Part shown: piece by piece, positions 3,273-29,799 of the stretch
Numbering within the stretch: position 1 is the first letter of the stretch
Layout of the letters: each line of letters begins with the position of its first letter
Assembly: GCA_021299095.1 (NCBI GenBank)
Contig: JAJTFW010000003.1
Span: 1-64,000, forward strand
Length of the DNA stretch: 64,000 nt
Reading direction: 5' to 3'
Source of the DNA: Sphingobacteriales bacterium
Lineage (GTDB): Bacteria; Bacteroidota; Bacteroidia; AKYH767-A; OLB10
Translations under genes and position numbers: made by a program
Notes under the pieces: generated by a model
Database searches by the model: none
Told to the model about the DNA's origin: nothing
What the model saw: the letters and a program-made list of their open reading frames with translations, nothing else

Positions 3273-4904
3273 ATGCCATCATCCAAATCGCCACTCCTGC
3301 GTCTCATCCGGAAAGCCTTTGTACTGTCGGAAATCAACCGTCAGCCCCACTCACCCGGATTGGATAAACTCATTGAACAGACCCAGCAGGTCCGTAATGA
3401 ATACAACCGCAGACGATTCATCGGCGATGTGACCAAAGCAGCCCTCTTCTCGGGTCTGGCCATGATGTTACCGGCTTGCAGTAAAGACGATTTACTGCAG
3501 GAACAGGAGGATGTCGGAATGCGAAAACCAGGTCAGCAACCGCAAATTACCATCATCGGGGCGGGCTTGGCCGGACTTAATTGTGCATATCAACTGAAAA
3601 AGCGCGGTATTTCCGCCACTGTGTTCGAAGGTTCGAACAGAGTTGGTGGACGTGTACTGACGCGCCAGAATTTTATCTCACAGGGAAACTACACCGAGTG
3701 CGGAGGAGAGTTTATCGATACGGGACACCGGACCATGCGCAGCCTTGCTGCCGAATTCGGCCTGAGCTTGCTCGACACCAACGATCCCGATGAATCGGCA
3801 TACCTCAACGACACCTTTTACATCGACGGGCAACATTACACGGAGGCACAGGTGATTCAGGCCTTCAGTCCATACGCATCCATCATCGCGGGCGATATCC
3901 AGTCGCTGCCTACCAATTTTTCATACAGCAATTACACAACCGCTGTTCAGCAATTCGATTCCATCAGCATCAGTCAATACTTCGACCAGATCGGAATGCC
4001 ACCGACCCTCTTTCTACGAAAAGGTCTCGAACAGGCATACAACACCGAATATGGTCGTGAAGTCAACGATCAGTCGGCCATCAATTTCCTGTTCCTCTTC
4101 ACCATCAATCCGGGCAACAGCAGCTACGACATCTTCGGTCTCAGCGACGAGCGCTTCAAGGTGCAGGGGGGCAACCAGCAGATCACCGATGCGCTGGCAG
4201 CCGCCATACCGGGACAAATCCGCCTTCAGCACAAACTCATCCGCATATCGACCAATGCAACCGGGCAATACGTGTTGCGTTTCCAGGGCATTCAACCGCT
4301 TGTGGCCGATATCTGCGTGATCACACTGCCGTTCACCCTGTTAAGGCAGGTGAACCTAAACGACCTCAATTTGCCTTCTTGGAAAACGAATGCCATTCAG
4401 AACCTGGGATACGGCACCAACGCCAAATTGCTGCTGGGCTTTACGGGACGCAAGTGGCGCGACTACGGTCATTCGGGTGGCGTGTTCACCAATGGTTCTC
4501 CCGCACAACCCTTCGAGTTCATCCAGACCGGCTGGGACAACACCCGATTACAGGGATCTTCGGGAGGCGGATACACCGTTTACCAAGGGGGTACGCAGGG
4601 TGTGAACCTGAGTTTATCCCAAACCCAAACGATGCTGAACCAGCTGGATGCCATGTGGCCGGGAACGGCTGCCCAGTACAACGGAAACGCAAAACTGATT
4701 CACTGGCCTTCACACCCCTGGTCGGAAGGCAGTTATGCCTGCTGGCGCGTGGGACAGGTAACCACCATGATGGGCGCAGAAGGTGAAAAAGTAGGCAACC
4801 TCTATTTTGCCGGAGAACACACCAGCTTATGGTACCAGGGCTACATGGAAGGAGCAGCCGAAACGGGCGCATCAGTAGCAAAGGCGATTGCCCTCGCTGT
4901 TTGA
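3273..4904 (+). CDS. Flavin monoamine oxidase-like FAD-dependent oxidoreductase
   Basis: ITIIGAGLAGLNCAYQLKKRGISATVFEGSNRVGGRV dinucleotide-binding motif; C-terminal YFAGEHTSLWYQGYMEGAAETGASVAKAI; RRRFIGD...LPAC Tat/lipobox-like N-terminal region. Confidence 0.9.
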   Translation: MPSSKSPLLRLIRKAFVLSEINRQPHSPGLDKLIEQTQQVRNEYNRRRFIGDVTKAALFSGLAMMLPACSKDDLLQEQEDVGMRKPGQQPQITIIGAGLAGLNCAYQLKKRGISATVFEGSNRVGGRVLTRQNFISQGNYTECGGEFIDTGHRTMRSLAAEFGLSLLDTNDPDESAYLNDTFYIDGQHYTEAQVIQAFSPYASIIAGDIQSLPTNFSYSNYTTAVQQFDSISISQYFDQIGMPPTLFLRKGLEQAYNTEYGREVNDQSAINFLFLFTINPGNSSYDIFGLSDERFKVQGGNQQITDALAAAIPGQIRLQHKLIRISTNATGQYVLRFQGIQPLVADICVITLPFTLLRQVNLNDLNLPSWKTNAIQNLGYGTNAKLLLGFTGRKWRDYGHSGGVFTNGSPAQPFEFIQTGWDNTRLQGSSGGGYTVYQGGTQGVNLSLSQTQTMLNQLDAMWPGTAAQYNGNAKLIHWPSHPWSEGSYACWRVGQVTTMMGAEGEKVGNLYFAGEHTSLWYQGYMEGAAETGASVAKAIALAV

Positions 4905-9420: not shown

Positions 9421-11433
9421 TCAGGAAGTTTCGGATGGGCGCACCCGATAGAACTGGTGCATGCTCAGCACATGGGGTATGCTTAGGCAGGAAAGCAGAA
9501 TAAAGAAGATTCCCGCATACTGATCTGCCCCTGCCACCATGAACAAGGCCATGAACACAGCAGCGGCCAAGCTGAACGGGAGGGATTTCAGGAGCAACGG
9601 CTTATAGCTCTGGTTCAGGCCGCGCCGTAACTGCCGCCAGCCATTTACACTGTGCTGGGCCACAAAATAAATACCAAAGGAGATCAGCAAGGGCAAGAAG
9701 CCTGTTAGCACCAAGTAGAACAAGGTCAGGAGCATGCGCTTCGAGCGCAGGTGAAAGGACATCGCCAATCCGAATAGTGCACAAACGGCCGACATCTGTA
9801 ATCCAATCTCTTTACTGAATGCAGGCAACCCCGACAGGGATTGTAGGCTGTAGATTTGATTAACAACCCACTGCGTTTCATCCGGGTGCGAAAACAGCAT
9901 CAACATTAAGAGCGAAAGTCCCCACATAAAGGATTTCCAACCCTGAGGTATTCCCCACTCCCCAAAATCAGCCTGACCGAAATGCCAGGCCGAATAAAGT
10001 ATGAATAAGGCCAATGCTAAGCTGGGAAAGAATATCCATACAATTCCCAACAGCAATCCCTTGGCCACATATACGGCAATGAAGCGCAGTAAAGAAGATG
10101 TGTTCCGAACAGCAGAATCGGTTAGGTGGTCGAGTGCGCCGTGCGTTAGCCCCACGAACAGAAATCCGATACCAAGAATTATCCACGATACGCCATGCGC
10201 ATGAACAAGCGAAAACAAGAGGAACAGGATGGTAAGGCTGAAACCGTAACTAGCGGTAGGCCAGTTAGAAGCCCGATGCATCAAATCTTTAAACGCCGCT
10301 TTGATAAAAAGAACAACCGGTAGACCGGCGAACATCTTCAGCTCATCCGATAGACCGGACTTCTCAGTCAAAAAGCGTAGAACTTTAGAGATCGGGGTGT
10401 TTCGGAATAGCGACTCGAATATCCGTTTGCCTTGTTCTGGTTGTTGCTCCAGAATTTTAAGCAACAAACGATCATAGAATGCGAAACGATTGGAGGATTT
10501 CGACTCTGCGAGCACTTCGCCAGAGTTCGACTCGGCCGTTTTTCGCATGGCATCTTTGGCCATGGCGAGAAATGCATAGCCCGTACTTGCTTTGAGCAAG
10601 TTTGCACGGGTCCCTGTATTAATCCAGGCACTACCATAATCGCGATAATCCGTCGGGCAAGTCGACATCGGGATGGCACCGGACTCCAGCGCTTCGATTT
10701 CAAACGAGGTACTCAATTGTTCGGTATAGGTTTTCAATATGGGCCTTGCCTCCTCATCGGAAAGCACCTGTTTGCCGAACCGCGTCAACTCAACCAGGGC
10801 TTTTTGGGAAGAGAAGGGCAATACATACATGAATTGTGTTGTGCCGTTCTGCGGGACATTGAAATCCATCAACACCATCTTGTTTTGGTCAAATACGGGT
10901 TCGGTTGTATTAATAACCCATCCTTGAAAAGACTGCAACAGGTGTGCCTGGTGTTGTTTCGGTGCTGCGAATTCCGGCGGTCGGCTATCGAATACCCGAA
11001 GCGCATGGATTGTACCGAAAGCTGTTGGAATTGCAAAACCCGCAGGGTGTGCCGATGGATCAGCCTCTACACGCGACTCGATGAAGCGTGTACCATGCTG
11101 CTGCAAGGCTTGTACAGCATTGAGGCGAACGGCTGAACCGGGGATATGATAATACTGAAGCGGAGCAATACACTCGCTGGCGATTCCGGGGACATCCACT
11201 GTTTGCCAGGAATGCGTAATCAAACTTTTCAGTTGCAGACCCTCAATTTCAGCAGGAGTACTCCAAAAACAAAATGTGCGATCGAGTGGTGCAAAGGCTG
11301 CTGGCTCAATCACCGCAATCGACTTCCCCTTGAGCTGGCCCGACTCACCAAGCCGAAGAGCCAACAGACTGTTTGCTGCTCCGAGGCCAATGAAGACCAC
11401 ATCGTAACTAGGGCTCGTGGTGATTGATTCCAT
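9421..11433 (-). CDS. crtY-blh: Fusion protein: lycopene beta-cyclase (CrtY-like) N-terminal and Brp/Blh beta-carotene 15,15'-dioxygenase C-terminal
   Basis: aa 1-388: YDVVFIGLGAANSLLALRL...DRTFCFWS, cyclase-like. aa 395-670: FVGLTHGALDHL, AWHFGQADF, FVAQHSVNGWRQL, IPHVLSMHQFYR, the His-containing membrane motifs of Brp/Blh. Confidence 0.88.
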   Translation of the reverse strand: MESITTSPSYDVVFIGLGAANSLLALRLGESGQLKGKSIAVIEPAAFAPLDRTFCFWSTPAEIEGLQLKSLITHSWQTVDVPGIASECIAPLQYYHIPGSAVRLNAVQALQQHGTRFIESRVEADPSAHPAGFAIPTAFGTIHALRVFDSRPPEFAAPKQHQAHLLQSFQGWVINTTEPVFDQNKMVLMDFNVPQNGTTQFMYVLPFSSQKALVELTRFGKQVLSDEEARPILKTYTEQLSTSFEIEALESGAIPMSTCPTDYRDYGSAWINTGTRANLLKASTGYAFLAMAKDAMRKTAESNSGEVLAESKSSNRFAFYDRLLLKILEQQPEQGKRIFESLFRNTPISKVLRFLTEKSGLSDELKMFAGLPVVLFIKAAFKDLMHRASNWPTASYGFSLTILFLLFSLVHAHGVSWIILGIGFLFVGLTHGALDHLTDSAVRNTSSLLRFIAVYVAKGLLLGIVWIFFPSLALALFILYSAWHFGQADFGEWGIPQGWKSFMWGLSLLMLMLFSHPDETQWVVNQIYSLQSLSGLPAFSKEIGLQMSAVCALFGLAMSFHLRSKRMLLTLFYLVLTGFLPLLISFGIYFVAQHSVNGWRQLRRGLNQSYKPLLLKSLPFSLAAAVFMALFMVAGADQYAGIFFILLSCLSIPHVLSMHQFYRVRPSETS

Positions 11434-11465
11434 CTTAGTACCGACAGCGGCTTGATTGAAAAGGA

Positions 11466-11500
11466 AAAAGGGAAGGGCGAATCCGTTTCACCCTTCCCTT
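11466..11500 (-). terminator. Hairpin between rhodopsin and crtY-blh (terminator/attenuator-like)
   Basis: Minus strand AAGGGAAGGGTGAA-ACGGA-TTCGCCCTTCCCTT followed by TTTCCTTTT. Confidence 0.7.
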
Positions 11501-11518
11501 CCCCTATATAAAAGATGA

Positions 11519-12244
11519 TTAGTCTTCTGAATTGCGGCTCAGAGCGTAAATCACCAGGCCGAATCCGATTTTGTTGATAGCATCAGCGATGTTGTACACA
11601 ATGTCCATGGCGTGGCTAGCCGCGGCGGGATCGCTTACAAGCTGCATACCGAACAATCCACCGGGTGTTCCGAGGATATAACCCAAGGGATAGATAGCCC
11701 AACCTACGAGTACAAACCAGGCAAGTACACGCGTTGCTTTGGCAACCTGCGGACCAGCTGATTGAGCCAGGTTGGCCACTTCGCCAAACCAAATCAGGTA
11801 TACGATGTAGAAGTAAGCGGCACCTGAAACAACACCCCACATGACACTGTTGTCACGGTCGATGGTCTCACCGAAGTAACCGGTCACCAACATTACAAGT
11901 GAAGCGAAGATCAATTTCCAGAGCAGGGCGATTTTCGCACCAGCCTTGCGGGTGATCAGATAGAACTCAACACACATCAGGGGAACAGTCAGGATCCAGT
12001 CCACATAACGGAAGAATGTGGGTGATTCGCCTGTTTCCAGGTTATATCCCCGCATGTAGTAATAGTGCACTGCGGCGATAAAGGTGATGAGTCCGGATAC
12101 CAGCACAGATGTCCTCCACTTCGCCGCTGTATTGTTCAGCTCGAAGAAGAAGAACACGGAGGCGGCCATCATGGCCATGGTTCCGATAAAGAAGGTGAAC
12201 GCAACGTAGTTGTCGCTCGCAATCGTAAGGTGTTCCATATTCAT
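11519..12244 (-). CDS. Proteorhodopsin-type light-driven proton pump
   Basis: 241 aa, seven TM; RYVDWILTVPLMCVEFYLI (D82/T86/E93 = DTE), H60 in AAVHYYYMRG, retinal Schiff-base lysine K225 in NIADAINKIGFG. Confidence 0.97.
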   Translation of the reverse strand: MNMEHLTIASDNYVAFTFFIGTMAMMAASVFFFFELNNTAAKWRTSVLVSGLITFIAAVHYYYMRGYNLETGESPTFFRYVDWILTVPLMCVEFYLITRKAGAKIALLWKLIFASLVMLVTGYFGETIDRDNSVMWGVVSGAAYFYIVYLIWFGEVANLAQSAGPQVAKATRVLAWFVLVGWAIYPLGYILGTPGGLFGMQLVSDPAAASHAMDIVYNIADAINKIGFGLVIYALSRNSED

Positions 12245-29334: not shown

Positions 29335-29799
29335 ATGGAATTGCTATTCAATGCACTGATTGTCGTGGCCACCTTCTTTGCCATGGAATTCGTGGCTTGG
29401 TTCACCCACAAGTATGTGATGCATGGTCTTTTGTGGATTTTACACAAGGATCACCACCAGACCGAGCCGGGATTCTTCGAAAAAAATGATGCCTTCTTTC
29501 TGATTTTCGCGGTTCCAAGTGCCATTCTGATTATGCTCGGTATGATGAATGGAAACGATTTCCGGCTCTATATCGGAATCGGTATTGCTGTGTATGGCCT
29601 GGCTTATTTTCTCGTCCACGATATTTTCATTCATCAGCGTTTTCGGATTTTCCGTCGCACCGACAACACGTATATGCGGGCTATCCGCAAAGCACACAAA
29701 GTGCATCACAAGCACCTGGGGAAAGAAGAGGGTGAATGCTTCGGTATGCTGCTCGTACCGATGAAGTATTACTTCGAAGCCAAACGCAGCCAAGATTAA
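29335..29799 (+). CDS. crtZ: Beta-carotene hydroxylase-like protein (fatty acid hydroxylase superfamily)
   Basis: His motifs HKYVMH, HKDHH, HDIFIHQR, HKVHHKH. Confidence 0.88.
   Translation: MELLFNALIVVATFFAMEFVAWFTHKYVMHGLLWILHKDHHQTEPGFFEKNDAFFLIFAVPSAILIMLGMMNGNDFRLYIGIGIAVYGLAYFLVHDIFIHQRFRIFRRTDNTYMRAIRKAHKVHHKHLGKEEGECFGMLLVPMKYYFEAKRSQD

Follow-up and report, generated by a model that had tools for sequence, protein, structure and literature searches.

In bacteria that carry proteorhodopsin, the last two steps to retinal, from lycopene to beta-carotene and from beta-carotene to retinal, can be carried out by the products of separate crtY and blh genes, which are associated with the rhodopsin. 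The two enzymes belong to the CrtY-type lycopene beta-cyclases (PF05834) and to the Brp/Blh dioxygenases (PF15461, TIGR03753), respectively. In the Blh of 66A03, mutagenesis identified H21, H78, H188 and H192 as essential (PMC9227343). A cyclase and a Blh within one polypeptide have been described in the protist Thecamonas trahens, which encodes a four-domain CrtI-CrtB-CrtYcd-Blh fusion, and its authors proposed direct cleavage of beta-carotene to retinal (PMC10016063). For a bacterial CrtY-Blh fusion we found no published description; our search ran mostly outside subscription journals, so such a protein may already have been described.

Here we analyzed a stretch of 64,000 nucleotides from a Sphingobacteriales bacterium (contig JAJTFW010000003.1; hereafter the window), in which a crtY-blh fusion gene lies just downstream of a proteorhodopsin gene. 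Its predicted product would catalyze the same two reactions as the separate enzymes and shares their association with rhodopsin, but as one polypeptide instead of two. It resembles the Thecamonas protein in combining a cyclase with a Blh, whereas the latter is eukaryotic, contains CrtI and CrtB as well, and uses the unrelated CrtYcd cyclase rather than CrtY in a two-domain protein.

The fusion gene occupies 9421..11433 on the minus strand and encodes 670 aa in a frame without internal stops. Pfam assigned Lycopene_cycl (PF05834) to aa 11-375 (10309..11403, minus strand; 154 bits, cut-off 23.4, covering profile positions 1-374 of 380) and BCD (PF15461) to aa 423-658 (9460..10167, minus strand; 112 bits, cut-off 28 bits), so that both domains are full-length and above cut-off, and it found no further domain in the protein. 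Among the NCBIfam models, blh_monoox (TIGR03753) matched the C-terminal half with 121.6 bits against a cut-off of 95.25, and none of the narrower lycopene cyclase models exceeded its cut-off for the N-terminal half (62 bits against 215 for the narrower equivalog TIGR01789). The N-terminal half is thus a full-length CrtY family member with an FAD-binding fold and a conserved glutamate, which differs from CrtY by its added C-terminal dioxygenase and by falling below the narrower cut-offs. The C-terminal half is a full Brp/Blh member with the conserved histidines, which differs from a standalone Blh in being joined to the enzyme that makes its substrate. The initial annotation, made from the letters alone, had described one uninterrupted CrtY-Brp/Blh frame; the frame and the Pfam and NCBIfam matches agree with that description, and both halves were assigned far above the Pfam cut-offs.

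An AlphaFold2 model, computed from an alignment of 26 fused relatives, had high confidence along almost the entire protein (mean pLDDT 89.7, pTM 0.80). In this model, aa 373-389 form the last helix of the cyclase and aa 393-409 the first of the dioxygenase, which places the junction of the halves at about aa 390-392, or nt 10258-10266, where the initial annotation had put it (near nt 10263). We assign the join between the two domains to 10168..10308 (minus strand) from the secondary structure of the model and from the spacing between the two profile matches, which is 27-35 residues across 102 distinct fused sequences; no conserved start codon occurs at the join in these sequences. Foldseek showed that the flavoprotein half resembles geranylgeranyl reductases and hydroxylases, and the matches listed include no solved structure related to the dioxygenase half. 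A profile search of PDB sequences gave no match for either half.

The 102 fused sequences are diverged and come from many assemblies. G16 and G18, the G-x-G of the dinucleotide- or FAD-binding loop, and E215, which we take to be the catalytic glutamate of the cyclase half from work on Pantoea CrtY, are present in at least 101 of the 102. The dioxygenase half keeps its four histidines (H431, H484, H594 and H654) in essentially all sequences, and the absences of H654 and G16 fall solely at alignment gaps. Judged by motif and spacing rather than by alignment to 66A03, H431, H484 and H594 would correspond to H21, H78 and H188 of that enzyme, and the fourth invariant histidine is H654. Unlike 66A03 Blh, the fusion lacks a histidine four residues after H594: the counterpart of H192 by spacing, position 598, is a glycine here and glycine, serine or alanine in fused relatives, and unfused Blh proteins of the same class, Bacteroidia, likewise have no histidine there. 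Fourfold-degenerate sites are near random, yet E215 and the four histidines stay conserved across the 102 sequences; therefore, both halves are under selection.

The BCD domain was found in 69 of 388 genomes of the class, and 30 of these 69 carry an intact fusion, with frames of 650-718 aa; in the loci retrieved, our own profiles placed the two domains within a single frame. The assumption in the initial annotation that the two genes are normally separate therefore fails for this group, and the search it suggested for the architecture across Bacteroidota was productive, yielding these 30 genomes and the 102 distinct sequences. An alignment-based contig scan kept 80 loci, all with the fusion and a few of them cut by contig ends; scanning contigs with a single fusion sequence as query gave no match. 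The scan loci are labeled as metagenome-assembled genomes (MAGs) of Flavobacteriales, Cryomorphaceae, Crocinitomicaceae, Chitinophagaceae, Saprospirales and others, and many of these labels look rough. Three genomes of another class of the same phylum also carry the fusion, phage records contain no relative of the protein, and the full fusion is absent from the searched relatives within the window's own family. The fused protein is a real two-domain protein, built from two known families and widespread in aquatic Bacteroidota, and surveys that treat the two genes as separate will give wrong counts for these bacteria. At one locus (L083, 3529-5663, in G319), a frame shift interrupts the fusion close to where the cyclase half ends, representing either a sequencing error or a real split; this genome also has a separate CrtY. 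A contig binned with a betaproteobacterial Methylotenera MAG (L102) carries a fusion and a rhodopsin nearly like those of Bacteroidota, and is likely misbinned or else reflects a very recent transfer. In G603, a genome from another class of the phylum, a 958-aa frame matched BCD; we rejected it as a fusion, since it is a chance frame overlapped by a CrtYcd gene in another frame. In that genome the CrtYcd gene directly adjoins blh (L194), so members of the unrelated cyclase family, too, can be linked to blh.

The most interesting result, and the one new here, is the association of the fusion with a second lycopene cyclase. Such a second, separate cyclase is present in 28 of the 30 genomes with an intact fusion. 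In 23 of them it is of the CrtYcd type (TIGR03462), assigned by profile alone; this enzyme could make another ring type, and in 11 fusion genomes its gene is next to a CrtZ-like one. Five others, including the window's genome, in which TIGR03462 had no match, have a separate CrtY. The exceptions are G337 (77% complete) and G380, which lack a separate cyclase of either type. An earlier reading of the fusion as the sole lycopene cyclase in 25 of the 30 genomes was overturned by the CrtYcd profile search. Among the 37 genomes with an unfused Blh, tallied by hand from tables, crtY lies directly beside blh in seven, and all seven have another cyclase. The remaining 30, with blh but no linked crtY, have one cyclase in 29 cases and two in one (G400). 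The contrast between 28/30 and 1/30 is significant without correction for kinship (Fisher p ~2e-13), and it recurs inside genus g79 (G103 and G342 fused, G276 not) and inside families f1, f37 and f57. The presence of another cyclase in 28/30 and 7/7 genomes indicates that the cyclase tied to blh is an addition rather than the general cyclase. In the window's genome, the separate crtY adjoins crtI on another contig (C89). As assembled, this genome has a carotenoid pathway without its first step: phytoene synthase (PF00494) is absent from the assembly and present in three congeners, and the absence is probably an assembly gap.

The gene upstream of the fusion (11519..12244, minus strand) encodes a proteorhodopsin of 241 aa, identified by the Bac_rhodopsin profile (PF01036, 144 bits) and a D-T-E motif in helix C; its best PDB matches are the solved proteorhodopsins 9jov and 9jou, and the methionine at the spectral tuning position suggests that it is probably green-absorbing. 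The link to a rhodopsin gene noted in the initial annotation is supported: 29 of the 30 genomes with an intact fusion have a rhodopsin, often directly adjacent. The adjacent rhodopsins of the window's type are on average 90% identical to that of the window, and the fused enzymes 39%; fourfold-degenerate sites are near random for both (33% and 25%, respectively), which indicates that the pairing is old and that the rhodopsin is far more constrained. These sites also rule out recent transfer as the cause of the rhodopsin identity of about 90%, so that the pump appears to be under unusually strong constraint.

A terminator-like hairpin followed by a T run lies between the rhodopsin stop and the fusion start (11464..11504, minus strand), found by pattern scan and by the folding energy of the gap (-31.9 kcal/mol, z -4.05). 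Of the 44 rhodopsin-fusion gaps compared, 43 contain such a hairpin, whereas it occurs in 1.7 of 44 gaps after shuffling, 4 of 41 gaps of the same length after the fusion and none of 42 before the rhodopsin; its sequence varies from locus to locus. This likely reflects conserved partial termination, with a high output of rhodopsin and a low output of the enzyme; the fusion gene may also have its own promoter. Several loci at which blh is a gene of its own (L011, L017, L020, L028, L031, L040 and L042) have the hairpin too.

Our preferred reading, in which we have moderate confidence, is that the fusion encodes a bifunctional cyclase-dioxygenase that serves retinal alone, beside the general carotenoid pathway and behind a leaky terminator. 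The N-terminal flavoprotein half would convert lycopene to beta-carotene by cyclizing both ends, and the C-terminal membrane half would cleave beta-carotene into two retinal molecules for the rhodopsin whose gene lies immediately upstream. This retinal-only branch on one protein would run parallel to the route from lycopene through beta-carotene to xanthophylls, for which the other lycopene cyclase would supply the beta-carotene that CrtZ turns into xanthophylls. The leaky terminator would probably keep rhodopsin transcripts far more abundant than those of the enzyme. From sequence and predicted structure, we infer both activities, the hand-over of beta-carotene between the two sites, the shielding from CrtZ and the read-through of the terminator. 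The window itself encodes a CrtZ-like beta-carotene hydroxylase of 154 aa (29335..29799, plus strand; PF04116, 48 bits, with histidine-rich motifs in the translation), which likely competes for beta-carotene. Since beta-carotene hydroxylated by CrtZ is lost to retinal synthesis, a private cyclase tethered to the dioxygenase would protect the supply and secure some retinal. The fused cyclase is thus probably an extra copy dedicated to retinal that shields its product from hydroxylation. The channeling of beta-carotene proposed in the initial annotation is better motivated because the fused cyclase is the extra one in 28 of 30 genomes; it is not necessary for retinal synthesis, given that in 29 of 30 genomes an unlinked blh evidently manages with a single, shared cyclase. 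More tentatively, we suggest two pools of beta-carotene, one within a channeling, retinal-only enzyme and one from the general cyclase for xanthophylls and perhaps a rhodopsin antenna. Genomes that link a cyclase to blh have a further cyclase as a rule, which suggests a dedicated branch, and how a xanthophyll-making cell secures retinal for its rhodopsin becomes a testable question. The fusion enzyme is, moreover, a ready-made candidate for making retinal in engineered laboratory hosts.

The main rival to a retinal-only branch is plain co-expression, in which the fusion provides coordinated synthesis and a 1:1 stoichiometry only, and beta-carotene is released to the membrane and shared, with no private pool. 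We consider this less likely, while regarding it as the strongest competitor. The cyclases nearest to the fused ones in the CrtY tree (L036, L039 and L047) each lie directly upstream of a separate blh, from which fusion is a short step, and the single cyclase that suffices for unlinked blh fits a shared pool. However, co-expression leaves unexplained why genomes with a blh-linked cyclase almost always have another (28/30 and 7/7) and why the spacing of 27-35 residues is near-constant in 102 diverged sequences.

The same trees bear on the origin of the fusion. In the CrtY tree, all fused rows fall on one side of one branch, with 84% bootstrap when the divergent L059 is included and support of 100/99 when it is omitted, and the fused CrtYs group apart from general CrtYs, including the second CrtY of the window's genome. 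The Blh tree unites the fused domains in one group (SH-aLRT 99) that also contains four unfused Blh proteins, namely L011, L017, L043 and the long-branched L014, whose placement is doubtful. L011 and L017 belong to the window's own family; at both loci (L011/L086 in G021 and L017/L087 in G019) a separate Blh directly follows the rhodopsin, nested in the fused clade, and both genomes have a general CrtY elsewhere. The cyclase half thus seems to have been lost in L011/L017 and in L043, and the fusion was apparently undone in two or more lineages. These trees are most simply read as a single ancient joining of a crtY-blh pair, followed by a few splits. L059 (in G137) is the most divergent fused protein; its grouping with the fused cyclases is weakly supported, and it may represent an independent fusion event. 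In L086, a photolyase/cryptochrome-like gene follows.

The families of the fusion genomes are dispersed through the tree, and the full fusion is otherwise missing from the searched relatives in the window's family, which indicates horizontal transfer. The extra cyclase might then be a by-product of transfer: a rhodopsin-fusion cassette moved, the hosts kept their own cyclase by inertia, and the fused cyclase half is redundant or decaying in some of them, as the apparent losses in L011/L017 and L043 and the frame shift in L083 would suggest. Nevertheless, the cyclase invariants are kept in 102 sequences at saturated synonymous divergence, so the half is maintained nearly everywhere, and we regard this explanation as improbable. 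An artefact joining two neighboring genes, conceivable for a window from a fragmented assembly of 93 contigs, can be dismissed, as the junction is common to 102 distinct, diverged sequences from many assemblies.

Two further observations concern the rhodopsins of fusion loci. At one locus (L129), two rhodopsin genes (553-1293 and 3946-4674) flank a single fusion gene on the same strand. In the window's rhodopsin, helix E contains the motif MWGVVSG with a glycine at what we take to be the Trp138 position, counted from bacteriorhodopsin numbering rather than from an alignment to xanthorhodopsin. Xanthorhodopsins carry the glycine of the carotenoid-antenna fenestration at that position of helix E (PMC13093654). 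By analogy, and given crtZ in the genome, a zeaxanthin antenna on the window's rhodopsin is possible.
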